Origin: a virus
IMG/VR virus record: IMGVR_UViG_3300042445_001685
Span: 1 to 64,000 of that record
Reading direction: 5' to 3' (one strand)
Length of the DNA stretch: 64,000 bases
Positions 1,158-57,172 of this stretch are shown in pieces. Numbering within the stretch: the first letter of the stretch is position 1; every line of letters starts with the position of its first letter. The translations under genes and the position numbers were made by a program. A model generated the notes under the pieces. It saw only the letters and a list, made by a program, of their open reading frames with translations. It did not search any database and was not told the DNA's origin.

Positions 1158-1289
1158 GGGTCTCTAACGGGTAAAGAGAACGGGTCTCAATTGGGTCACT
1201 AGACGGGTAACAAAACGGGTAGCTAGAACGGGTTTGTAAAGGGTAACGAATCGGGTTACTAGAGAGTGAAACGGGTCTATAGAACGGGT
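1158..1289. repeat. Phased GGGT repeat cluster 1 (12-nt period)
   Basis: GGGT starts at 1158, 1169, 1182, 1193, 1205, 1217, 1230, 1241, 1253, 1273 and 1286. Steps are 11-13 nt, except one of 20 that contains a degenerate GAGT at 1264. The commonest unit is ACGGGT plus 6 variable bases. The variable step length rules out a coding repeat. It lies in the 566-nt gene-free stretch 1067-1632. Iterons of an origin or protein or RNA binding sites are possible roles. Confidence 0.8.
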
Positions 1290-1567
1290 ATCTACTATAG
1301 ATTTTCCTTATTATAGAAAAAAACTATTAAGGAGACACACAAGCCACATTTTTCCTATCCTTATTTTACCATCCCTACTTCCTTTTTTTACACATCATAT
1401 ATACTATACAATACCTTTTCATACCAAGTACTATATGTCTTTATACTCTTCCATTCCTTTTACTACTCTTTATGTTTAATCAGAGTCGTACCCTTTTACT
1501 ATGTATTTCCAGTAGTTCTCCCTATGTCTCTCCCTTTATCTCTCCAGGTCCATACGTATGTATAAAC
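1290..1567. other. AT- and pyrimidine-rich gap between the two GGGT clusters
   Basis: This 278-nt stretch separates the two repeat clusters and has no gene. The plus strand is rich in T and C with short TATATACTATA-like segments. An AT-rich, easily melted block flanked by phased short repeats is the usual layout of an iteron origin, but nothing here proves that role. Confidence 0.4.
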
Positions 1568-1630
1568 GGGTATCGATTGGGTAGAGAAACGGGTAATTGG
1601 ACGGGTATCAAAGTGGGTATTTTAACGGGT
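1568..1630. repeat. Phased GGGT repeat cluster 2 (12-nt period)
   Basis: GGGT starts at 1568, 1579, 1591, 1603, 1615 and 1627, with steps of 11, 12, 12, 12 and 12. The unit resembles cluster 1 (ACGGGTAT plus four variable bases). It begins immediately after the stop codon of the 84-aa gene at 1633-1887, so in the minus transcript it forms the start of that gene's 3' untranslated region. Confidence 0.8.
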
Positions 1631-2950: not shown

Positions 2951-3790
2951 TTACTTTAATCCGTACAATACACTAGTACCTGATCCTAATTGTGTTGTCG
3001 GTACATTACCTTTCCACTTCTCAATCCATTGCTGTTGTATTAACATTGGAGTTAATGTTTGTTGTCTCAATCTATTTGATTCAGCTTCAGCTCTTGCATT
3101 CGCTAGTAATGCTTCAGCGTTACCATTTGCTGTTGCTACTTTGATTTTAGCTTCTGCTTCTGCTTGCTTAACTTTATTCTCTGCCATTAAAGCTGACTGT
3201 ACTGCATTGTTCTTAGCATTAATAGCTTTCTTAAATGAATCTGGATAGATTAGATTTGATGTGAATTGATTTAGTATGAATCCTTCTTTCTGTAATTGTG
3301 TTACCAATATTCTTCTTACTTCAGTTTCAAATACTTCTCTATTTGAAATCAATCCATCTGCTGTATACTTATTTGCTGCTAATCTAAAAGCATCGTACAC
3401 GGCCGTTTTTAAGAATCCTTCTTCAATTTCTGGTAAGCTTCTTCTATATTTTGCAAAGATAGCTGGTACTTTATCTCTCTGTACTGAGTAATTCATAATA
3501 GGTGATACACTGAATTCAGATCCATCTTTACTATTTACAATGAATGAATTGTCTCCTTCTTCTGATTTCTTATACTCTTTATGTTGAATATAAGTTGGAA
3601 ATTCATAGATCTTTGTTGACATAGGATTGTAAAATACTAATCCAGTACATTCTGTAACATCGCTTACTCCTTTACCTGACCCATATAGATTTACTTTTAC
3701 ACCTACATGCCCGGCATCAATACGTTCACATGAGAATACTCCCACTACTAATAACACTACTAATCCTAATACTACTAAAATTCTGTTCAT
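2951..3790 (-). CDS. SPFH/band 7 (prohibitin-like) membrane protein
   Basis: 279 residues. An N-terminal hydrophobic anchor (about 2-20) ends in FSC, a weak lipobox, so it may be a lipoprotein or a single-pass protein. Residues 25-180 fit the band 7/SPFH fold, and 190-250 are an Ala/Glu-rich helix with NKVKQAEAEAKIKVATANG and GNAEALLANARAEAESNR, typical of SPFH coiled coils. Host SPFH proteins form ring-like scaffolds that control membrane proteases. A phage copy might protect the infected envelope or a phage protein from proteolysis (inference). Promoter at 3837-3869. Confidence 0.85.
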   Translation of the reverse strand: MNRILVVLGLVVLLVVGVFSCERIDAGHVGVKVNLYGSGKGVSDVTECTGLVFYNPMSTKIYEFPTYIQHKEYKKSEEGDNSFIVNSKDGSEFSVSPIMNYSVQRDKVPAIFAKYRRSLPEIEEGFLKTAVYDAFRLAANKYTADGLISNREVFETEVRRILVTQLQKEGFILNQFTSNLIYPDSFKKAINAKNNAVQSALMAENKVKQAEAEAKIKVATANGNAEALLANARAEAESNRLRQQTLTPMLIQQQWIEKWKGNVPTTQLGSGTSVLYGLK

Positions 3791-3836
3791 AACTTGTTGT
3801 TTAAATTTGATTTATAATTAATTATTTATTACTATA

Positions 3837-3869
3837 CCTAAATATACGAAATATATTCTTAGGAGGCAA
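3837..3869 (-). promoter_or_regulatory. Phage promoter
   Basis: TTG at 3867-3869 directly follows the TAG stop of the upstream gene; 20-nt gap; TATATTTAGG at 3837-3846. It drives the SPFH gene. Confidence 0.8.
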
Positions 3870-4259
3870 CTAATCCAGCCCTAATTTTTTTCTTTTATCT
3901 GTTTTATAAGTAGAATTTTCAATGTTATCTTTAAATAACTTTTTAACTCTACTGTAAGCTTTGCTCCATATTGGAATTACTCCTACATCTGTAATGTGAT
4001 ATGGAAATATCAATGAGTACTGTGTTTGAAAAATGGAAGGATTATTTCCATGTCTGACTGTATATCCTTTTACATTTAAAACAAACTTATCATTCCATCT
4101 TTTAGTTACTCCGTTTATAAGATTTTCATTTTCAATTCTATCTAAATAATCTGAAATGTCTTTATCTGAGATTGGAGATCCTAGCTCACATGTTGTAACA
4201 GTTTCTATAATTCCTAAAACTACTAAACCTGCAATTAATAATATTAATAACACTACCAT
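3870..4259 (-). CDS. Hypothetical membrane-anchored protein, 129 aa
   Basis: One N-terminal hydrophobic segment (MVVLLILLIAGLVVLGI) followed by a polar domain of about 105 residues. It lies at the end of a run of small membrane-protein genes (4262-4928) just ahead of the SPFH gene, so an envelope role is plausible. No family recognised. Confidence 0.7.
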   Translation of the reverse strand: MVVLLILLIAGLVVLGIIETVTTCELGSPISDKDISDYLDRIENENLINGVTKRWNDKFVLNVKGYTVRHGNNPSIFQTQYSLIFPYHITDVGVIPIWSKAYSRVKKLFKDNIENSTYKTDKRKKLGLD

Positions 4260-4261
4260 AA

Positions 4262-4486
4262 CTATTCTTCTTTTTCTTGTTTAACTTCTTCTTTCTCTGG
4301 CTTAATTATCTTCATCAGATATAGTCCTAAGTATCCAAATGCTACAAACACTACTCCAAATAATACTATTCCAATATTAAATAAGTAAGTATCTTCTTGA
4401 TTCATCAAATAAAATACTAAGTCTACTAACTGAACTAATCCTAATCCTAAGAATAGTCCTACTAAAACTTTAATAACTGTCTTCAT
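4262..4486 (-). CDS. Small membrane protein, 74 aa
   Basis: Two hydrophobic segments (about residues 5-24 and 34-58) and a charged C-terminal tail (PEKEEVKQEKEE). Its ATG overlaps the previous stop by one base (TAATG). Unknown function. Confidence 0.65.
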   Translation of the reverse strand: MKTVIKVLVGLFLGLGLVQLVDLVFYLMNQEDTYLFNIGIVLFGVVFVAFGYLGLYLMKIIKPEKEEVKQEKEE

Positions 4487-4689
4487 TACTTTGAACTTGA
4501 GCTTGTATTTCTAAATAAAATTCCACATAGGATATTAATTCCTAATGCTTGCCAAAAGCCAATTGGATTGAATCCATCTGCTGCTCCTACTAAAGCGTTG
4601 TTCCAAAGCCATTGTGTTGGCCATGCTAATAAAATCGCTATTACAACTAGCGCTCCTAATCCTGCTAATACTAATCCTACTTTTTCCAT
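4486..4689 (-). CDS. Small membrane protein, 67 aa
   Basis: An N-terminal hydrophobic segment (residues 4-23) and a weaker second one near 45-60, ending in a Ser-rich tail. It is coupled to its neighbours by one- and two-base junctions. No family recognised. Confidence 0.6.
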   Translation of the reverse strand: MEKVGLVLAGLGALVVIAILLAWPTQWLWNNALVGAADGFNPIGFWQALGINILCGILFRNTSSSSK

Positions 4690-4691
4690 AA

Positions 4692-4928
4692 TTATAATTC
4701 GTTTTCTGGTGTTCCTGTTACTGCATCAATTTCTGTATACCTTGAGTTAACTTGCTCTTTAAGAACCTCTCTAAGGTATTTTATATTCTCTACTCCTACC
4801 GATCGTACTGCTCTCTGAGGATCTTTAAACAATTTGTCGTGAGTCTTTCCATTCTTTTTTATAACTTGAATGTAATTTCCTTTTAAGTCTGCCATCAATT
4901 CCTTTGGTGTTTTTACTTTGCCTTCCAT
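4692..4928 (-). CDS. Hypothetical protein, 78 aa
   Basis: A soluble basic protein (MEGKVKTPKELMADLKGNY at its start) without cysteine clusters or membrane segments. It lies in the same leftward operon as the DUF932 gene. Function unknown. Confidence 0.65.
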   Translation of the reverse strand: MEGKVKTPKELMADLKGNYIQVIKKNGKTHDKLFKDPQRAVRSVGVENIKYLREVLKEQVNSRYTEIDAVTGTPENEL

Positions 4929-4931
4929 GTT

Positions 4932-5171
4932 TTAATTTATGTATAATAAGTTTCCTTGTTGATCTTCTATCTTTGTTACTTCCATTTTCTTATCCATATG
5001 GTCTAAAATAAATCCTCCATGCATTTGGAAGTACATATTAAAGGCTTGATGGAAAGCTTCATAGGGAGGAGTCATTCTATTCTCATCCTTATGCTTTAAG
5101 AAGTATTCGTAAAACCAAGCCAGATCATACTGGCCTGATTTTCTCATCTGTATATACTTTTCTCTATCCAT
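4932..5171 (-). CDS. Hypothetical protein, 79 aa
   Basis: A soluble, aromatic-rich protein (YDLAWFYEYFLKHKDENRM). Its start overlaps the stop of the DUF932 gene by one base, so the two are probably co-translated. No family recognised. Confidence 0.65.
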   Translation of the reverse strand: MDREKYIQMRKSGQYDLAWFYEYFLKHKDENRMTPPYEAFHQAFNMYFQMHGGFILDHMDKKMEVTKIEDQQGNLLYIN

Positions 5172-5989
5172 TAGTTAACCAATGCTGTAGCTAATTTAAA
5201 AAGCTTTTGATTAACTTCTAGATCTTTCTCGAATGATTTAATCTTTCTAACCTTTCTTACTTTAGCACCATTCAATGCTGCTGAATATCCTCCTTGAGTA
5301 ATCTTCTCTTGGATTACATTAAATACTTTCCAGAGATCATTTCCTTTATCAGCATCTCTTACAGGAGTTAGAACGTCTTGAATAGTCTCTTCATCCCACT
5401 CAGCATCGATTCTATTAGTTCTCAATTGCATTGCATCAATTGCTAACTGTCTTTGCTCTGCAGGAGTCAATTCTCTTAACTGCATTTTGTTAAGAATGTC
5501 TACTTTATTAGGAAGATCAGCTACTGCTTGAGATACTACTCCTCTTAATTCTTCGAAGGTATATCCTGTATGTCTGATTCTGAATGCTGAGAATTCTTCA
5601 TCAGCTACTACTAATCCATTTGAGCATACTAATCTGTAGATACCAATTCTGAATTGAAAAGAATTAAATCCATCATGAGAGTTCGTTAAAATGATTCTTG
5701 GGAAAGCATCATCACCATTCTTACCTTTGATCATAAGATCTGGATTTTGAAATGATACCATATGTTTTGAGAAGATTGTATCTTTACCTCTAGATTTTCT
5801 TTGAGAGGCAGTTACTGGCTTCCATCCTAACTTCTCTAAGTCATCGATGATAGTCTCAGTATTAACATGTAAATATTTACCACTTACTTTAGTACTTGTC
5901 GGTGCTGTAGCGAATGCTACTGGTGCTAAAGCTTTTACTTGATCTTTTGAAAGGTAAGAATCTAAACCTGTAGTGAATTTTGATAACAT
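5171..5989 (-). CDS. DUF932 (phage/plasmid-like) protein
   Basis: 272 residues matching the DUF932 family, which is widespread in phages and plasmids and of unknown biochemical role. The family signature around residues 100-125 reads TNSHDGFNSFQFRIGIYRLV followed by CSNGLVV. Length is normal. It is the first gene after the promoter at 6018-6050, so it is probably strongly expressed early. I do not assign a function beyond the family. Confidence 0.85.
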   Translation of the reverse strand: MLSKFTTGLDSYLSKDQVKALAPVAFATAPTSTKVSGKYLHVNTETIIDDLEKLGWKPVTASQRKSRGKDTIFSKHMVSFQNPDLMIKGKNGDDAFPRIILTNSHDGFNSFQFRIGIYRLVCSNGLVVADEEFSAFRIRHTGYTFEELRGVVSQAVADLPNKVDILNKMQLRELTPAEQRQLAIDAMQLRTNRIDAEWDEETIQDVLTPVRDADKGNDLWKVFNVIQEKITQGGYSAALNGAKVRKVRKIKSFEKDLEVNQKLFKLATALVN

Positions 5990-21058: not shown

Positions 21059-21241
21059 CTATTTTAATTTAATATTTGTCTGTGTGTGAAGCTTTTGTTT
21101 AAACCCCTCTTCTGTAAGATAGAGAAAAATTGCTCTGTCTACAAGCTTCTGTAGAGAAAATTTATGCCTTACGCATTGCTCTTTAAATTCCTGTAGAAGA
21201 TCTTCTTCTACTTTAACCGATGTTAATTTTTTAGTGTTCAT
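21059..21241 (-). CDS. Ribbon-helix-helix DNA-binding protein
   Basis: 60 residues with the RHH layout: a beta strand (KLTSVKVEEDLLQEF), then helix A (KEQCVRHKFS) and helix B (LQKLVDRAIFLYLTEEGF). RHH proteins bind operators as dimers. As first gene of the saccharide operon it is a natural candidate to regulate it (inference). Confidence 0.7.
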   Translation of the reverse strand: MNTKKLTSVKVEEDLLQEFKEQCVRHKFSLQKLVDRAIFLYLTEEGFKQKLHTQTNIKLK

Positions 21242-32835: not shown

Positions 32836-33013
32836 GTGATATACTTATTATTCTACTTTCATCTACAAAGATAAAATTACCTTTTACTCTTAAACTGTAC
32901 GAAGGTTTTCCTGAAGTGTTATTTACTATTCCAAATACTTCAGCATCTATAATCTCATTATCGAGATTAATAATAACCATCTCTCCTACTTTATACTTTG
33001 CGTCCATTTGCAA
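32828..33013 (-). CDS. Small hypothetical protein, 61 aa
   Basis: A compact beta-rich protein (KYKVGEMVIINLDNEIIDAE), overlapping both neighbours (8 and 23 bases). Its SH3-like pattern suggests a small accessory protein in the DNA-modification operon. Confidence 0.6.
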   Translation of the reverse strand: MQMDAKYKVGEMVIINLDNEIIDAEVFGIVNNTSGKPSYSLRVKGNFIFVDESRIISISHE

Positions 33014-33785
33014 ACCATCTGAATTTGTGAATGTTCTGAAGAATCATATTCGTATCTTCTGGTACGTAATTGATTAGTTCAAATAACTTTTGAGACTCTT
33101 TTGACCATAATCCGTCTGCTCTATACTCAATTCCTTTTATACCATGTACAACTGGATTAGAAGTATCTAAAGAATAGATCCATTTATAATCTGAGTAAAA
33201 AGAAAACTCTTGAGGTAATCCACATCCTAATAAGTGATGCTTCTTCTCTTCGTTTATTACACCGTCTCTCAACAGATCTCCTAGTAGCTTAACCCTTCCT
33301 AACATCCAGCTAACATACTTGTTAGGATGAGAAATAGTATTAGTATAGTACGAATAGTCGAATGAAATTGCAATCATATCTACATTTGCAATCTTATCCA
33401 TATACTCATAACAAGTCTTAATTTGACTATAAGTCTTTCCTTGAACAACTCCTATTTTCTTTCCTGGAAGATTTTTATATTTGTTATTCCATTCAGTCAT
33501 CTGCTTAACAGTCTTCTTTGCATCTTCTAAAGCATCTGGAACTATATACCAATCTGGCTTTAATTCTAATACCCATCCTGCAAACTTCTCTGCATCAAAA
33601 GCTTCTTCTAATTCAAATATAGAATTATCTAAAATAATTTCTCTACCTGCTTCTTTAGCTTCTTGAAACTGTTTTAAGTATTCTGGATCTTCTTCAAATA
33701 AGTGAACAAGTGCATAGTCGTAATCAGTATGCTTTTGTACTTCTTTAAATATACTCTTCGGTGATTCGTGTGCTATCTTAATCAT
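32991..33785 (-). CDS. dpdA: DpdA-like DNA guanine transglycosylase
   Basis: 264 residues resembling the short phage members of the tRNA-guanine transglycosylase superfamily. REIILDNSIFELEEAFD (about 48-64) holds the likely catalytic Asp, and PDWYIVPDALEDAKKTV a second conserved Asp region; KKIGVVQGKT and MIAISFDYSYY continue the TIM barrel. DpdA exchanges guanine for a deazaguanine in DNA. It is much shorter than bacterial DpdA, matching phage subfamilies. The assignment rests on motifs plus context. Confidence 0.75.
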   Translation of the reverse strand: MIKIAHESPKSIFKEVQKHTDYDYALVHLFEEDPEYLKQFQEAKEAGREIILDNSIFELEEAFDAEKFAGWVLELKPDWYIVPDALEDAKKTVKQMTEWNNKYKNLPGKKIGVVQGKTYSQIKTCYEYMDKIANVDMIAISFDYSYYTNTISHPNKYVSWMLGRVKLLGDLLRDGVINEEKKHHLLGCGLPQEFSFYSDYKWIYSLDTSNPVVHGIKGIEYRADGLWSKESQKLFELINYVPEDTNMILQNIHKFRWFANGRKV

Positions 33786-52159: not shown

Positions 52160-52226
52160 AATACTTGAACTAGTCAAGTACTACATTGGAGATGAGGGAA
52201 TTGCTCTCATATTGGATAAACTTTAG

Positions 52227-52300
52227 TGTCCTATACAGGATTCGAACCTGTGACCTTCTCGTTATGAGCGAGCTGCTCTAACCGGCTGAGCTAAAAGGAC
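52227..52300 (-). tRNA. tRNA-Met (CAT)
   Basis: Anticodon loop CTCATAA, G1-C72 acceptor stem, ACAGG-TTCGAAT-CCTGT T arm. It is the last tRNA of the array in the direction of transcription. CCA is not encoded, as for the other tRNAs here. Confidence 0.9.
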
Positions 52301-52306
52301 AATTTG

Positions 52307-52376
52307 TAGCGTAGCGTGGACTCGAACCACCCCCCAGGCTTATGAGACCTAGATGCAACCTTTACACCTTAACGCA
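52307..52376 (-). tRNA. tRNA with CAT anticodon (Met, initiator or Ile2)
   Basis: Anticodon loop CTCATAA again. The acceptor has only about four good pairs with a T-T mismatch at 1-72, and the D and anticodon stems rely on G-T pairs. The 1-72 mismatch recalls initiators, but it could be an Ile2-type or decaying gene. Confidence 0.6.
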
Positions 52377-52385
52377 ATTTATAAG

Positions 52386-52458
52386 CGGTCTGCACGGGGA
52401 TCGAACCCGCAATCTTCGCAGTGACAGTGCGACGTGTTACCAATAACACCTCCAGACC
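52386..52458 (-). tRNA. tRNA-Asp (GTC)
   Basis: Stem TCGCA, loop CTGTCAC, stem TGCGA; discriminator G. It is one of four tRNAs with a G34-U35 anticodon, which are natural substrates for queuosine. Confidence 0.9.
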
Positions 52459-52464
52459 AAAATG

Positions 52465-52499
52465 CCCGTCTGTTCCGAGCTGTCAACCACCAGCTGTTA
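52465..52499 (-). repeat. Inter-tRNA spacer repeat F, copy 1
   Basis: Shares CGTCT, TTCCGAG, GTCAA and AGCTG blocks in the same order with the spacer at 52590-52625. Both copies follow a tRNA by 6-7 bases. Confidence 0.6.
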
Positions 52500-52512
52500 T
52501 ACAGCTGTATAG

Positions 52513-52584
52513 TGGAGCTACCGGGATTCGAACCCGGAATAACAGAATGCAAATCTATCGTGATGCCAATTTCACTATAGCCCC
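52513..52584 (-). tRNA. tRNA-Ala (TGC)
   Basis: Loop TTTGCAT; the acceptor contains the G3-T70 pair that is the classic alanine identity element. Confidence 0.9.
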
Positions 52585-52589
52585 AGTTA

Positions 52590-52625
52590 CTCGTCTTTCC
52601 GAGTCGTCAAATCTAGAAGCTGATT
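52590..52625 (-). repeat. Inter-tRNA spacer repeat F, copy 2
   Basis: Same ordered blocks as 52465-52499, with an ACTCG/CGAGT hairpin at its left end. Confidence 0.6.
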
Positions 52626-52659
52626 AAGCTATTCCTCCTAATACGAATAAAGAGCTCTG

Positions 52660-52731
52660 TACTGCGTACGGGATTCGAACCCGTGCCTTATCATAGAAAG
52701 TGATACGTGTTTACCCCTTCACTAACGCAGC
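52660..52731 (-). tRNA. tRNA-Glu (TTC)
   Basis: Stem TATCA, loop CTTTCTA, stem TGATA; acceptor GCTGCGT/ACGCAGT with a G-T end pair. Confidence 0.9.
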
Positions 52732-52737
52732 AATTTG

Positions 52738-52809
52738 AGCGGCTAGAGAGAATCGAACTCTCATCTTTAGATTGGAAGTCTAAAGTAATGACCATTATAC
52801 GATAGCCGC
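52738..52809 (-). tRNA. tRNA-Gly (TCC)
   Basis: Stem TTAGA, loop CTTCCAA, stem TCTAA; acceptor GCGGCTA/TAGCCGC, discriminator T. Confidence 0.9.
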
Positions 52810-52814
52810 AGTTG

Positions 52815-52888
52815 AGCTTCTGGACGGGATCGAACCGACTCTATTCTGGGTTACAAATCCAGTGCACCACCATTTGTGCGTCAGAAGC
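52815..52888 (-). tRNA. tRNA-Thr (TGT)
   Basis: Loop TTTGTAA; D arm GCAC/GTGC; acceptor GCTTCTG/CCAGAAGC region, with one A-C mismatch at the top of the anticodon stem. Confidence 0.85.
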
Positions 52889-52893
52889 AAATT

Positions 52894-53000
52894 TAAACTA
52901 TTAGAGGCTATTGGGAGTCATCAGTGGCAGCCTTTCACCGTAAACTCGGCTTCCCAATCTTATCTGCACATCTATCTAACTTTTTACGCATAATAGTTTA
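52894..53000 (-). ncRNA. Candidate structured RNA A between tRNAs
   Basis: Closed by the 10-bp inverted repeat TAAACTATTA/TAATAGTTTA (52894-52903 with 52991-53000). Inside, ATTGGGA pairs with TCCCAAT. A GGC(T)GCCACTGATG segment precedes the 3' strand of that helix, and the same arrangement occurs in RNA B at 57177-57297, whose inner helix is ATTGAG/CTCAAT. Different sequences with preserved pairing suggest a real RNA family. Confidence 0.6.
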
Positions 53001-53008
53001 TATTTTAA

Positions 53009-53077
53009 TTAGAGCCGGGCTATGAATCCGTTCTGCAGGTTAGCCCCTGCTGCTTTAACCTTTATAAGCTAACTCTA
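53009..53077 (-). tRNA. Irregular tRNA-like RNA (anticodon unclear)
   Basis: It has an acceptor helix TAGAGTT/GGCTCTA and a D arm GCTT/AAGC. The anticodon arm is GCAGG/CCTGC with a 6-nt loop GGCTAA lacking U33, and the T arm is degraded (ATTCATA instead of TTCGAAT). The centre could read GCT (Ser) or CTA (amber). Pseudogene, decoy or suppressor. Confidence 0.5.
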
Positions 53078-53083
53078 ATTTTG

Positions 53084-53157
53084 TACCCAAGGAGGGACTC
53101 GAACCCTCAATATCTAGATCCTAAGTCTAGCGTGTCTGCCAATTCCACCACTCGGGC
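53084..53157 (-). tRNA. tRNA-Leu (TAG)
   Basis: Stem CTAGA, loop CTTAGGA, stem TCTAG. The variable region is only 5 nt, unusually short for leucine. Confidence 0.85.
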
Positions 53158-53252
53158 ATTTGCCGCATGTGCGGCCACTTATCAATCGGTAGCTCCCTCT
53201 CGTTGTCCATCTGTGGGTGTAACACATTTGGTAGAGGGTCGAACCTTCAATG
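53158..53252 (-). other. Structured spacer between Leu and Cys tRNAs
   Basis: No gene. It contains a GCCGC/GCGGC hairpin (53162-53175) and a CCCTCT/AGAGGG helix enclosing a TGTG/CACA hairpin. Function unknown. Confidence 0.45.
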
Positions 53253-53323
53253 AGGTCGGTGTTGGAATCGAACCAACGTTACAGAGTTTGCAATCCTGCG
53301 CCTAACCATTCGGCCAACCGACC
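53253..53323 (-). tRNA. tRNA-Cys (GCA)
   Basis: Loop TTGCAAA and discriminator T, the usual cysteine identity base; acceptor GGTCGGT/ACCGACC. Confidence 0.9.
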
Positions 53324-53328
53324 AATTT

Positions 53329-53392
53329 AAACATCTAGCCTGACCTGCCAGACAGTACGTGTCGTCGATCGTGCGTTACGTAGTAGATGTTT
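53329..53392 (-). ncRNA. Helix-closed spacer RNA
   Basis: AAACATCTA (53329-53337) and TAGATGTTT (53384-53392) form a perfect 9-bp closing helix. It is the first element transcribed from the promoter at 53409-53441, before tRNA-Cys. Confidence 0.5.
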
Positions 53393-53408
53393 TATCTTCT
53401 TTCTTATA

Positions 53409-53441
53409 CTTAAAGATATGAACTTTATTTCTTTCTAGCAA
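53409..53441 (-). promoter_or_regulatory. Promoter of the 52.2-53.4 kb tRNA block
   Basis: TTG at 53439-53441, 20-nt gap, TATCTTTAAG at 53409-53418, fired towards the tRNAs. Confidence 0.8.
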
Positions 53442-53450
53442 CTTTTTTTA

Positions 53451-53957
53451 CTAAAAAAATAAAAAAGTTTCCCATTCCTTTGGTATGTGTGTCATAGTTC
53501 TCATTAACATTAAATAGTGAGGTCTTTTTGGTTCTGGAATTTCCTTACCGTATTCCTCTAATGTTAAATCTGCTTTCTCATGATTACATGGTCTGCAGGC
53601 TGTTACTAAATTATCCCAAGCATCTTTTCCTCCTTTTGATTGAGGTATAACATGGTCAAGTGTTAGTGTTCTTTGATTTGAACATCCGCAGTAAACACAT
53701 TCGTAATTATCTCTTCTATAAATATTCTCTCTTGTTAGAGCTACTTTTTGAATATTATGTTTTACATATGTAAATACTCTAATAATAGAAGGTTTATAAA
53801 TTGTTAATTCTGGGTTATACAGATTAAATGTTTCTGGATGTTCAGCTATTACTTCAGCATTACCTTTATAAGAAATCACGAAAGCTCTTTCTGTACTTAT
53901 AACTGATCTTGCGATAAAGCTGGCATCTACTACTAGTGCTTTTTGATACTTACTCAT
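53451..53957 (-). CDS. HNH endonuclease
   Basis: 168 residues. RRDNYECVYCGCSNQRTLTL (about 82-101) leads to DHVIPQSKGGKDAWDNLV and TACRPCNHEKADL, the complete C..C..DH..N..C..C..N pattern of HNH nucleases. It splits the tRNA array in two, a common place for mobile endonuclease genes. It may cleave host DNA or promote its own spread. Confidence 0.85.
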   Translation of the reverse strand: MSKYQKALVVDASFIARSVISTERAFVISYKGNAEVIAEHPETFNLYNPELTIYKPSIIRVFTYVKHNIQKVALTRENIYRRDNYECVYCGCSNQRTLTLDHVIPQSKGGKDAWDNLVTACRPCNHEKADLTLEEYGKEIPEPKRPHYLMLMRTMTHIPKEWETFLFF

Positions 53958-53989
53958 GATTTACTTTTTTTAATGAAACAATATATTTG

Positions 53990-54060
53990 CGCGAACCCTA
54001 GGAATCGAACCCAGCCGTCGAGGTTTTGGAGACCTGACCGACACCTTGTCTGTGGAACGC
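53990..54060 (-). tRNA. tRNA-Trp (CCA)
   Basis: Loop CTCCAAA with anticodon CCA and discriminator G; the acceptor has two T-T mismatches at positions 4 and 5. Confidence 0.8.
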
Positions 54061-54132
54061 ATTTGTAGGGTATCGCTTAACCTACCTAGATTAGCCTCAT
54101 CTACTTAACCCTTATGAGGGACGATTTTTTTG
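54061..54132 (-). other. Spacer with CCCT/AGGG hairpin
   Basis: Contains CCCT-CATA-AGGG near 54111-54122 and a GTAGG/CCTAC pairing; no gene. Confidence 0.4.
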
Positions 54133-54204
54133 AACCCATACCTGGACTTGAACCAGGACTGAAACGTTAGAAGCGTTTAGTTCTTCCGATTAAACTATAC
54201 GGGC
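54133..54204 (-). tRNA. tRNA-Arg (TCT)
   Basis: Stem AAACG, loop CTTCTAA, stem CGTTT; CCTGG-TTCAAGT-CCAGG T arm. Confidence 0.9.
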
Positions 54205-54209
54205 AGTTG

Positions 54210-54281
54210 AGGTCTTAGTAGGAGTCGAACCTACGTTCTATCGTTCGTAGCGATAAGTTTTTCCAATTAAACTATAAGACC
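54210..54281 (-). tRNA. tRNA-Arg (ACG)
   Basis: Stem TATCG, loop CTACGAA, stem CGATA. A34 would need editing to inosine to read CGU, CGC and CGA. Confidence 0.9.
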
Positions 54282-54286
54282 AAATA

Positions 54287-54352
54287 AGAGAGGCTTTATT
54301 TAAGCTACTTTCTGCTATGCAACAGGGTAGGCAATTAGTCCTACATCTCTCT
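54287..54352 (-). ncRNA. Helix-closed spacer RNA, cloverleaf-like
   Basis: AGAGAG at both ends pairs (54287-54292 with 54347-54352). Inside are GTAGG/CCTAC, TGC/GCA and GCTT/AAGC hairpins, a three-arm layout. Confidence 0.4.
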
Positions 54353-54357
54353 CTTTG

Positions 54358-54437
54358 TACCCCTGACTGGAGTCGAACCAGCAAGCCTGAGCGCCAAGTT
54401 TTAAGCCTGGTGTGTTTACCATTTTCACCACAGGGAT
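54358..54437 (-). tRNA. tRNA-Leu (TAA)
   Basis: Loop CTTAAAA with a 12-nt long variable arm, as expected for leucine; acceptor ATCCCTG/CAGGGGT. Confidence 0.88.
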
Positions 54438-54444
54438 ATGTTTG

Positions 54445-54517
54445 TGTGAAAGATGGGACTCGAACCCACAATCTCCTGAACCACAATCAGACGCTTTACC
54501 AATTCAGCTACAATCAC
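54445..54517 (-). tRNA. tRNA-His (GTG)
   Basis: Loop TTGTGGT. A G is available at position -1 (base 54518), but position 73 is A rather than C, which is uncommon for bacterial tRNA-His. Two T-T mismatches occur in the acceptor. Confidence 0.8.
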
Positions 54518-54524
54518 CATATTG

Positions 54525-54594
54525 TACCGACTACAAGTTACGCTCTTGTCTGAGAATACTTATGAGATATTCTCGATCCTAGATCAAGTCGGTA
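54525..54594 (-). ncRNA. tRNA-shaped spacer RNA with CTCATAA loop
   Basis: TACCGACT and AGTCGGTA close a cloverleaf. It has a GATC-TAG-GATC arm, an 8-bp arm (GAGAATAT/GTATTCTC) with loop CTCATAA, and an ACAAG-AGCGTAA-CTTGT arm. The loop equals the Met anticodon loop of the tRNAs at 52227 and 52307, but the T loop is not TTCGAAT and the D arm is tiny. Confidence 0.5.
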
Positions 54595-54597
54595 GTT

Positions 54598-54722
54598 GAT
54601 AGGGAACCTCTTACCCTATCGCTGTACTATCTGATTTTAAAGTGTCTTACCACGGGGCCCCGTTCGTACTTCCTTCTCCTGCATTCCTTAGATGCGTTGT
54701 GAGGACGGTGAGGAGGTTTTTT
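54598..54722 (-). other. Hairpin-rich spacer, related to repeat element
   Basis: Contains a GATAGGG/CCCTATC hairpin (54598-54620), the perfect palindrome ACGGGGCCCCGT (54652-54663) and, at 54706-54720, 15 bases identical to repeat element copy 2. No gene is present. Confidence 0.5.
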
Positions 54723-54724
54723 TG

Positions 54725-54807
54725 AGGAAAGCAGAGGTATCGAACCCCATGCCCGAAGGCACGATACGCTTAGCAAGCGGTCTCAACTCCTAGTTGATTT
54801 ACTTTCC
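54725..54807 (-). tRNA. tRNA-Ser (GCT)
   Basis: Loop TTGCTAA and a long variable arm with a TGCC-TTCG-GGCA hairpin, typical of serine. Confidence 0.88.
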
Positions 54808-54812
54808 CTTTG

Positions 54813-54886
54813 TAGGTAATATAGGAATCGAACCTATAACCTCTCACGTATCAGGCGAGTGCTCTAACCAATTGAGCTAATTACCT
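54813..54886 (-). tRNA. tRNA-Ile (GAT)
   Basis: Stem CTCGC, loop CTGATAC, stem GTGAG; acceptor AGGTAAT/ATTACCT. Confidence 0.9.
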
Positions 54887-54893
54887 ATTTTTG

Positions 54894-55037
54894 TGCTCAT
54901 AGCTGGAATCGAACCAACCTCGATAAGTCACTTACTCCAACCAACTGCTACTTGTTACGTACCTTGAGCTTTTACGATTGACCGTCACGTTATCCCACTT
55001 CAGGTTGGGGAGCTACCACACTACCTGTTATACGAGC
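54894..55037 (-). tRNA. tRNA-like RNA with about 70-nt insertion
   Basis: The ends form an acceptor stem GCTCGTA/TATGAGC, and GTTGG-TTCGATT-CCAGC is a full T arm. The middle is far too long (144 nt in total). A CCCA/TGGG arm with loop ACCTGAAG could be the anticodon arm (GAA, Phe), followed by about 70 nt before the T arm. An intron, a fused gene or a new RNA are possible. Confidence 0.5.
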
Positions 55038-55046
55038 ATTTAATTG

Positions 55047-55118
55047 CGGGCCTGGGAGGAATCGAACCTCCATAAGATGATTAACAGTCATCCGTAATAA
55101 CCTTTATACGACAAACCC
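55047..55118 (-). tRNA. tRNA-Asn (GTT)
   Basis: Stem GATGA, loop CTGTTAA, stem TCATC; acceptor GGGTTTG/CAGGCCC with G-T pairs. A possible queuosine substrate. Confidence 0.9.
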
Positions 55119-55123
55119 GGTTG

Positions 55124-55196
55124 TGGACCCTACAGGAATCGAACCTGTTCCTCTAGTTCTTCAGACTAGCGTACGCACCAGCTATACAAAAGGTCC
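55124..55196 (-). tRNA. tRNA-Phe (GAA)
   Basis: Stem CTAGT, loop CTGAAGA, stem ACTAG; acceptor GGACCTT/AGGGTCC. Confidence 0.92.
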
Positions 55197-55201
55197 AATT
55201 G

Positions 55202-55284
55202 TGGGATACTGTGGAATCGAACCACACGCTTCTTACAGCAACGATTTTACAGACCGCTTATCACACCAGTGACTGAAGCATCCC
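55202..55284 (-). tRNA. tRNA-Tyr (GTA)
   Basis: Loop CTGTAAA with a long variable arm, acceptor GGGATGC/GTATCCC. A possible queuosine substrate. Confidence 0.9.
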
Positions 55285-55290
55285 AATTTG

Positions 55291-55362
55291 ATCATTCTAC
55301 AGGAATCGAACCTGCTTCTCCACCCTCCACGGGCAGCGTAGTCACCAATCTACCAAGAACGA
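55291..55362 (-). tRNA. tRNA-like RNA, anticodon ambiguous (TGG or GGA)
   Basis: All four helices form: acceptor TCGTTCT/AGAATGA, D arm GTAG/CTAC, anticodon stem CTGCC/GGTGG, T arm GCAGG-TTCGATT-CCTGT. The 7-nt loop CGTGGAG has G33 if the anticodon is TGG (Pro). If U33 is required, the anticodon would be GGA (Ser), with a poorer stem and no serine variable arm. Confidence 0.6.
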
Positions 55363-55381
55363 AACTATAACAAGCTTTCAT

Positions 55382-55434
55382 CGGCAAATTACTAACTCAT
55401 AATAGACTCCATATAGTCTTGAAAATACTTGCCG
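55382..55434 (-). ncRNA. Helix-closed spacer RNA
   Basis: CGGCAA (55382-55387) pairs with TTGCCG (55429-55434) around an AGACT-CCATAT-AGTCT hairpin. Confidence 0.4.
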
Positions 55435-55461
55435 GTATTTTACTTGCTACCCAGAATTTTG

Positions 55462-55532
55462 TACCTCGTGATAGAATCGAACTATCGCCCTTTGCATGTA
55501 AAACAAATACGCTACCATTACGCCAACGAGGC
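55462..55532 (-). tRNA. tRNA-Val (TAC)
   Basis: Stem TTTGT, loop TTTACAT, stem GCAAA; acceptor GCCTCGT/ACGAGGT. Confidence 0.9.
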
Positions 55533-55591
55533 AAATCTAATTCTACGCTTCGGTCTAAAAGCCCTTCTATGAATTAGTAACAGTCTTCTTT
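55533..55591 (-). repeat. Inter-tRNA spacer repeat D/E, copy 1
   Basis: CTAATTC (55537-55543) and GAATTAG (55571-55577) close a hairpin. The TCTAATTCTACGCTTCG start and the TTCTATGAATTAGTAACAGT end are shared with copy 2 at 55666-55725. Confidence 0.7.
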
Positions 55592-55593
55592 TG

Positions 55594-55666
55594 TACCCCC
55601 GGCTGGCCTCGAACCAGCTACCCCCGAGTTAAAAGCCCGGTGCCCGTCCACATGAGCTTCGAAGGC
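55594..55666 (-). tRNA. tRNA-Lys (TTT)
   Basis: Stem CCGGG, loop CTTTTAA, stem CTCGG. The acceptor relies on three G-T pairs. Confidence 0.85.
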
Positions 55667-55725
55667 AAATCTAATTCTACGCTTCGAGGACTTACTCGCG
55701 TGGTCTTCTATGAATTAGTAACAGT
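55667..55725 (-). repeat. Inter-tRNA spacer repeat D/E, copy 2
   Basis: CTAATTC (55671-55677) and GAATTAG (55712-55718) close the hairpin; outer sequences match copy 1, while the loop side differs. Confidence 0.7.
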
Positions 55726-55734
55726 CTCTTCTCG

Positions 55735-55810
55735 TCTGGTAGGCAGGATTCGAACCTGCGTGCTCTAGCGTCCAAGGCCAGCGAGATAAACCGGACTCCT
55801 CTACTACCAG
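55735..55810 (-). tRNA. tRNA-Pro (TGG)
   Basis: Stem CTGGC, loop CTTGGAC, stem GCTAG; acceptor CTGGTAG/CTACCAG with the C1-G72 pair typical of proline. Confidence 0.88.
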
Positions 55811-56025
55811 TGGTGAAGGGATTATTTTTTTAAAGTAGAATTCGCCCATCTCAAAACTACTGTAATTTCCGTAAGCAAAGCCATCGGGCTGATTCCCTGT
55901 ACTCATGTCTTGCATCGTTTTCTCCATATGGATTTCTCCACTACTTACTGATAATGCTTTCTTTACTAACCGTCCTACTTACTGATCAAGTGTTGGGATA
56001 GGCTTTCATTACTTACAATTATTTG
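55811..56025 (-). other. Spacer of unknown function
   Basis: A 215-base gap between Gln and Pro tRNAs. A reading frame from 55927 (MEKTMQDMSTGNQPDGFAYG) stays open into tRNA-Pro, so I do not call it a gene, but its first 35 codons look protein-like. Confidence 0.35.
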
Positions 56026-56097
56026 TTGGCTTACTAGGATTCGAACCTAGACTAAAACAGTCAAAGTGTTTTGTGCTAACCGTTACACTATAAGCCA
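56026..56097 (-). tRNA. tRNA-Gln (TTG)
   Basis: Stem AAACA, loop CTTTGAC, stem TGTTT; acceptor TGGCTTA/TAAGCCA. Confidence 0.9.
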
Positions 56098-56103
56098 ATA
56101 TTG

Positions 56104-56187
56104 AGGAAGACGTGGGACTCGAACCCACAACAGTATTACCTGCTACCACTTTTCAAGAGTGGCTCCTGATCCAGCCGGATGCCTTCC
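56104..56187 (-). tRNA. tRNA-Ser (TGA)
   Basis: Stem CCACT, loop CTTGAAA, stem AGTGG, with a long variable arm. First tRNA after the promoter at 56236-56268. Confidence 0.9.
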
Positions 56188-56235
56188 CTATGCTTTATCC
56201 AATATGTCAATGAACTCTTATTCTTTATTTCTGTA

Positions 56236-56268
56236 CCTAAAGATACGATTTTTTTTTCTTTCTAGCAA
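56236..56268 (-). promoter_or_regulatory. Promoter of the 54-56.2 kb tRNA block
   Basis: TTG at 56266-56268, 20-nt gap, TATCTTTAGG at 56236-56245; preceded by the terminator at 56279-56310. Confidence 0.82.
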
Positions 56269-56278
56269 CTTTTTTTTA

Positions 56279-56310
56279 ATAAAAAACCCGAATCTTTTTT
56301 TGATCCGGGT
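56279..56310 (-). terminator. Rho-independent terminator
   Basis: On the minus strand ACCCGGATC pairs with GATTCGGGT (one mismatch) around an A-rich loop, followed by six Ts. It ends the 47-aa gene's transcript. Confidence 0.8.
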
Positions 56311-56346
56311 ACCTTACTTATAATATGTATTTTATACTATATCATA

Positions 56347-56490
56347 TCATACCCCGGTACCTCCTTGTTTCGGTTCGTTATTATATCCAGCAAAGCCTAA
56401 AATGACATCCCCACATAACGAATCCGACCACGTATTCAATGCTCTTGTCGCTGTGCTAAGTTGTTGATGTATGTTTTGAATTGCTTTCAT
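56347..56490 (-). CDS. Small hypothetical protein, 47 aa
   Basis: A 47-codon gene (MKAIQNIHQQLSTATRALNT) with a promoter directly upstream (56508-56540) and a terminator directly downstream. This solitary, well-insulated placement supports a real gene. The C-terminus is Gly-rich. No family recognised. Confidence 0.6.
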   Translation of the reverse strand: MKAIQNIHQQLSTATRALNTWSDSLCGDVILGFAGYNNEPKQGGTGV

Positions 56491-56507
56491 TTTATTTGCT
56501 TTCTATA

Positions 56508-56540
56508 TATAAATATATGAACTTTTCCATTCCAGTCCAA
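56508..56540 (-). promoter_or_regulatory. Phage promoter, proximal
   Basis: TTG at 56538-56540, 20-nt gap, TATATTTATA at 56508-56517; serves the 47-aa gene. Confidence 0.75.
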
Positions 56541-56577
56541 CTATATTTTAATTTTTTTTCTTTGTGTTTTTATATAT

Positions 56578-56610
56578 TATAAATATACGAACTTTTATTT
56601 TATAAAACAA
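56578..56610 (-). promoter_or_regulatory. Phage promoter, distal tandem copy
   Basis: TTG at 56608-56610, 20-nt gap, TATATTTATA at 56578-56587, exactly 70 bases from the proximal copy. No gene lies between the two, so they act in tandem. Confidence 0.7.
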
Positions 56611-56630
56611 CTACTGTTCTTTGGATTAAT

Positions 56631-56942
56631 TTATCCGTTTATTAATTTTTTTTTCTTAACTGGCTCACATCCATCATTGTTAATTGACGTAAGTTTTTGT
56701 TCTAATTTGTCTACTCTGGAGTCTGTATAGGAAATACAGTCTGAGTGTAGTTTGTTTACTCGATCAACTTCCTGATCAATTCTACGATTTACTAATTCAT
56801 CGTTTCTAGAAATCCAGTTCTGTATTTCAGTTAACTCTTTTTCTTGCTTTGCTACTTTGCTTGCTGTTCTAAACGCTACCACAACCCCCCATGCAAGGAG
56901 AGCTATACCAACCCCTAAAACAAATGCTAAAATTTGTTCCAT
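56631..56942 (-). CDS. Membrane-anchored coiled-coil protein, 103 aa
   Basis: An N-terminal membrane segment (ILAFVLGVGIALLAWGVVVA, about 4-23) and a long heptad-rich coiled coil (RRIDQEVDRVNKLHSDCISY). Its mRNA would also carry the two irregular tRNA-like genes upstream. Unknown function. Confidence 0.65.
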   Translation of the reverse strand: MEQILAFVLGVGIALLAWGVVVAFRTASKVAKQEKELTEIQNWISRNDELVNRRIDQEVDRVNKLHSDCISYTDSRVDKLEQKLTSINNDGCEPVKKKKLING

Positions 56943-56983
56943 AATTTATAATTTTTATTTCAAAGAACAGTAGTTTAATTTTG

Positions 56984-57080
56984 TAGTCAGGACAGGATTC
57001 GAACCTGCTCCAGCTTTGCCATAAATAGTATATTTCAACTAAACCTTGGGGAGGTGCCACCAACCAATGGTCTCCTGACT
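56984..57080 (-). tRNA. tRNA-like RNA, 97 nt, anticodon unclear
   Basis: Acceptor AGTCAGG/CCTGACT (7 of 7 pairs) and GCAGG-TTCGAAT-CCTGT T arm are perfect. The best anticodon arm (ACC/GGT) has loop TCCCCAA, which would give CCC (Gly) but without U33. A variable region of about 30 nt contains an AAATA-TAC-TATTT hairpin. Confidence 0.55.
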
Positions 57081-57085
57081 GTTTG

Positions 57086-57172
57086 GAATCGGTGAGGGAT
57101 TCGAACCCTCATCCCGCTTAGAAGCGGTGTTACCCTCTGTCGGTATTCATTCCCGATTACACCAACCGATTC
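57086..57172 (-). tRNA. tRNA-like RNA with 8-bp acceptor, anticodon unclear
   Basis: Acceptor AATCGGT/ACCGATT plus an additional G-C pair, the pattern of G-1:C73 histidine tRNA. T arm GAGGG-TTCGAAT-CCCTC is perfect. Two arms compete as anticodon arm: TACC/GGTA with loop GACAGAG and CCGC/GCGG with loop TTCTAA. One may be a variable arm or an insertion. Confidence 0.55.

Follow-up and report, generated by a model that had tools for sequence, protein, structure and literature searches.

The 64,000-nt window analysed here is part of a virus record of 86,649 bases (G000, an 86.6-kb contig), and close to its start, at about 1130-1635, lies an element of three parts: an array of short direct repeats (array A, 1158-1289, + strand), a pyrimidine-rich non-coding core of about 260 nt, and a second array in the same orientation (array B, 1568-1630, + strand). 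Specifically, array A holds 11 GGGT words, which start at 1158, 1169, 1182, 1193, 1205, 1217, 1230, 1241, 1253, 1273 and 1286, and array B holds six, at 1568, 1579, 1591, 1603, 1615 and 1627. The words stand mostly within ACGGGT (11 of the 17) and follow each other at steps of 11-13 nt, or 11-12 nt in array B, with the single exception of a 20-nt step in array A (1253 to 1273) that encloses a degenerate site, GAGTG, at about 1265. The recount thus bears out the 17 words, the clusters of 11 and 6 copies, the 278-nt gap between them and the phasing given in an earlier note on this sequence, apart from that one longer step.

The outer edge of array A carries a G+C hairpin, CCCCC-GAA-GGGGG (1136-1148), which has no T-run at the position of a terminator and has similar counterparts in the relatives immuto (introduced below), L132, L139, L011 and L234. 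Beyond it lies a promoter-like site, TTG-N20-TATCTTTA (1084-1114, - strand), for a 65-aa membrane-like open reading frame that adjoins array A (869-1066, - strand); the site is conserved in relatives and resembles the Bacteroidetes -33/-7 promoter consensus. At the other end, an 84-aa open reading frame (1633-1887, - strand) ends just past array B. Other genes take the place of the 65-aa frame in most relatives, and the 84-aa frame is likewise replaced in relatives. Further out, an array of TTAAAG-N5-CTTTAA inverted repeats (634-697), the densest in the window, recurs in several relatives at a distance of about 700 nt from the core and is tied to the region by position only.

The phased direct repeats are far beyond chance. 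The longest chain of GGGT words at 10-14-nt steps has nine members, compared with a maximum of three in 60 Markov-1 copies of the window, and 5000 local shuffles yielded phased chains of at most three and GGGT counts of at most five, against the nine and 17 observed. Outside the element, the rest of the 86.6 kb holds no more than four GGGT per 160 nt. The repeat unit is a 12-nt motif, RWCGGKTnnCYA (K is G in the window type and T in a CGGTT type described below), which is non-palindromic and about one helical turn long. The earlier note had taken the sequence between the words to be free, which proved wrong: over 13 relatives, GGGT is followed by C at position +3 in 72% of cases and by A at position +5 in 75%. 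As tandem direct repeats of shared orientation in a non-coding region, the units are arranged in the manner of iterons.

The relatives compared are mostly metagenome contigs, some of them possibly chimeric (L258 being the suspect case), and near-identical contigs were merged prior to counting. The nearest isolate to the window's record is Flavobacterium phage vB_FspM_immuto_2-6A (hereafter immuto), a Baltic Sea phage of Flavobacterium sp. LMO8 with a genome of 160,410 bp and about 82% identity around the element. One strand of its genome carries nearly all genes, among them replication genes for a DnaB-type helicase, a DnaG-type primase, family A polymerase, a single-strand-binding protein and a recombinase, as well as a 7-deazaguanine DNA-modification set (DpdA, QueC, QueD, QueE, QueF and FolE). 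The window additionally contains 23 tRNA genes clustered at 52226-57171, in a stretch richer in G+C.

The three-part element is present in immuto and in at least 16 other distinct relatives, so that its absence from close relatives, which the earlier note had named as counting against its reading, is not what was found. In immuto, L132, L139 and L166 the layout is identical, with whole units of 11-12 nt gained or lost, and in immuto the element lies in the longest intergenic stretch of the genome (735 nt). The genes flanking it are replaced or shuffled among relatives, and the element itself persists. Each of five long records has the phased pattern at a single locus; 20 other contigs, retrieved with the SPFH and DUF932 genes, lack it, and a reversed control pattern scored zero everywhere searched. 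One locus per genome would also suit a terminase or recombination site, that is, a role in packaging, recombination or late replication instead of a primary origin. This reading is very unlikely, as the immuto terminase gene lies about 52 kb from the element, no termini are known at the element and nothing specific speaks in its favor.

The core between the arrays (1290-1567, with the core of the profile HMM at 1299-1565) was matched by a profile search in 18 distinct sequences, including those of the other word type. Its + strand is rich in pyrimidine and poor in G (G 7.5%, C 24.7%). Of the earlier description of this block as rich in A, T and pyrimidine, the strong pyrimidine bias holds, but the A+T content of 68% does not set it apart from the phage genome at about 66% in the way that an A+T-rich unwinding region would be. 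A coding reading of the element was rejected: variable core columns are spread evenly over the three frames (49/48/48) and indels are mostly of 1 nt, which agrees with the non-coding character proposed before. An origin based on DnaA boxes was also discarded, the sole relaxed match in the core (1386-1394) being within chance.

In immuto, an intrinsic terminator in the sense of the genes precedes array B, and a promoter-like site of the same TTG-N20-TATCTTTA form lies on the other side. The position between these two signals, ahead of a series of small genes that are probably early, would suit a transcription control region in which many operator or activator sites serve a phage regulator of the early-gene block that starts at the promoter-like site. 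Yet the first gene downstream of the element is not conserved between relatives, the phased pattern occurs in no other region of these genomes, and 17 sites, spread over about 470 nt and flanking a conserved core of about 260 nt, exceed the needs of one promoter, all of which makes this explanation distinctly unlikely. The same terminator bears on a role in RNA, either as protein-binding sites or as structured RNA in a transcript across the region. In the window, no terminator was detected between array B and the adjacent end of the upstream gene, which would allow such a transcript; the earlier note had suggested RNA-binding sites in a minus-strand 3' UTR. In immuto, however, the terminator stands between the array and the genes upstream of it; relatives differ in which gene lies upstream, folding of either strand is no better than that of shuffled sequences (z-scores of +0.41 and +1.64), and no Rfam family scored above threshold. 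The 3'-UTR proposal is thereby disfavored and a role in RNA is highly improbable, with a structured RNA or riboswitch in particular rejected on the folding and Rfam results.

The words themselves change in step. Specifically, L258, L244, L237, L235 and L239 keep the core but carry CGGTT in place of CGGGT, 12 nt apart and with the C and A preferences unchanged. The exchange is nearly complete on both sides, 13 relatives together having 163 CGGGT and one CGGTT, and these five having 76 CGGTT and one CGGGT. Among more distant relatives, whose core homology is supported by no more than a short similar junction, L273 and L288 have a single CGGTT array, and L255 (at about 14337) and L280 (at about 3773) have phased arrays of a third, GTGAGGA-like word beside the core-like junction. 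A G-quadruplex was rejected as an explanation, since relatives with CGGTT words lack the GGG runs that it would have to conserve. The rewriting of all sites at unchanged spacing is the trace expected from a trans-acting DNA-binding protein whose specificity has changed; the turnover thus accords with joint evolution of the words and a sequence-specific DNA-binding protein and points to a dedicated binding protein for the words in immuto-like phages. Alternatively, the change could stem from a host factor, if this factor is not the same in all hosts. In either case, the repeated protein-binding sites suggested in the earlier note gain support from the 12-nt motif, its single locus, its retention in relatives and the concerted change of words. 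In a different phage contig, L307 (G006), the reverse complement shows several stretches of 12-nt GATTCAGTAAGG-like repeats at 3183-5568, which would read as a DSVR tetrapeptide and are possibly an analogous array.

Which protein might read the words was approached through the genes of these phages. Pfam scans of 30 proteins returned no initiator family, and near the element no gene family separates both word types throughout with good sampling. A reasonable candidate for binding the words is an Arc-like (ribbon-helix-helix) protein of 60 aa (21059-21241, - strand), which is conserved in 18 of 25 records; as the switch between words it was rejected, its N-terminal strand being identical in both word types. 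The clade of a DUF932 protein (5171-5989, - strand) matches the iteron word except in L258, which combines CGGTT words with a CGGGT-type DUF932, and the protein was set aside as specificity factor on this ground; its model found no useful PDB match. A T5orf172-domain protein (immuto 75473-76105, L127:25473-26105) is conserved in all five genomes and shares its domain with the origin-directed nuclease Odn of ICP1.

Across the five genomes, four of the 111 families present in all of them follow the word split, namely DpdA, FolE, DUF4494 and DUF932, a link that is weak because it sets only three genomes against two. In immuto, the first three lie in one neighborhood (32.4-34.9 kb) and DUF932 lies at 63.2 kb; the match of the word split to the DpdA cassette and DUF932 may serve as a weak lead. 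The window encodes a DpdA-type DNA guanine transglycosylase (32991-33785, - strand), named after the annotation of its immuto homologue, and the two complete genomes with CGGTT words have an enzyme of about 26% identity instead. The DpdA type agrees with the word in all seven genomes readable for both (five CGGGT, including the window's contig, and two CGGTT; L221 is among the seven), a 5 + 2 concordance that, for a single binary character, would arise by chance about once in 21 before correction for the number of families examined and is not significant; L244, with CGGTT words, has neither DpdA type on its contig. The DpdA/FolE modification cassette has been exchanged as a unit among close relatives (window 32991-33785 versus G003/G004), and the formyltransferase-like, kinase and QueF genes beside the immuto cassette have no blastp counterpart in G003 or G004. 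It is a speculative and quite improbable idea that the swap of the cassette led to rewriting of the G pattern of the iterons from CGGGT to CGGTT, with an initiator that would read modified or unmodified guanines and a DNA chemistry that would thereby set the identity of the origin.

The available data are most compatible with a model in which the element is an iteron-type replication origin of the immuto-like phages, to which we assign a probability of roughly 55% on the sequence evidence. An origin would account for the repeats in direct orientation, for a conserved core placed between them, for the single locus and for the co-evolving words. Of the functions offered in the earlier note, it is the best supported, although the lack of a known initiator family in the 30 scanned proteins and a core no richer in A+T than the genome count to some extent against it. 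In this model, a DNA-binding protein of the phage (or host) would load side by side on the approximately 17 direct 12-nt sites, RWCGG[G/T]TnnCYA, and the two resulting nucleoprotein arrays would strain or open the core that they flank. The phage-encoded replisome, with its DnaB-type helicase, DnaG-type primase and family A polymerase, could then be loaded at the core. Binding, melting and initiation at the element are thus predicted steps. In immuto, the residual GC skew peaks at 74-82 kb and the element lies at 66.4-67.0 kb; with nearly all genes on one strand, the skew is uninformative.

The 12-nt pitch and the two arrays also resemble plasmid centromeres, which speaks against an origin. Type II and III plasmid centromeres typically consist of two clusters of 10-12-bp direct repeats, and those of ParMRC (R1 parC) and TubZRC (tubC), with two clusters of about 11-12 bp, share this plan with the element. 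A small ParR/TubR-like or Arc-like protein, such as the conserved ribbon-helix-helix protein of these phages, might polymerize on the arrays and thereby anchor the phage DNA, segregate it or condense it. Unlike ParMRC and TubZRC, however, the element has no partition operon, and hence no operon for a filament-forming NTPase, among the inspected neighboring genes. No tubulin/TubZ match was found in five genomes with a search whose control was positive, and a ParM search gave no match, but its positive control failed. The conserved core of about 260 nt is furthermore far longer than the gap of known centromeres, and partition would be of little use to a lytic phage. A centromere-like or genome-organizing site is, as such, unlikely, but together with a regulatory array it is the main rival to an origin.

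For an iteron-type origin, the closest parallels come from a large phage and from plasmids and satellites. The oriE iterons of T4 are 12-nt direct repeats at the proposed origin of a large myovirus, syntenic in relatives and of unproven role (PMC3016281), and the immuto-type element likewise combines 12-nt direct repeats, a proposed origin and conservation in relatives. In the T4 sequence, the array found close to the annotated oriE repeats every 24 nt within the coding sequence of gene 5, so that the resemblance is one of idea, not of anatomy: the repeats of the immuto-type element are non-coding, form two arrays at a spacing of 11-13 nt with a core between them, and switch their word in concert. 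Iteron origins of plasmids and of the satellite PLE pair a RepA_N initiator with tandem direct repeats in a non-coding region (PMC7145576, PMC8263062). In the PLE of Vibrio cholerae, the origin iterons and the DNA-binding domain of RepA change together (PMC8263062), which by analogy offers the best precedent for the co-evolution of word and protein argued here. PLE iterons are, in contrast, semi-palindromes of about 30 bp with a known cognate RepA, whereas the immuto-type units are non-palindromic, 12 nt long and have no initiator family found to match.

If the element is an origin, large aquatic Bacteroidetes phages of a widespread group would have a single origin that is exchangeable, and its natural two-way, possibly three-way, specificity variants could reveal the initiator. 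The in-step rewriting of approximately 17 sites makes the co-evolution of origin and binding protein directly testable. Finally, the element bears on the long-unexplained 12-nt repeats near oriE of T4.
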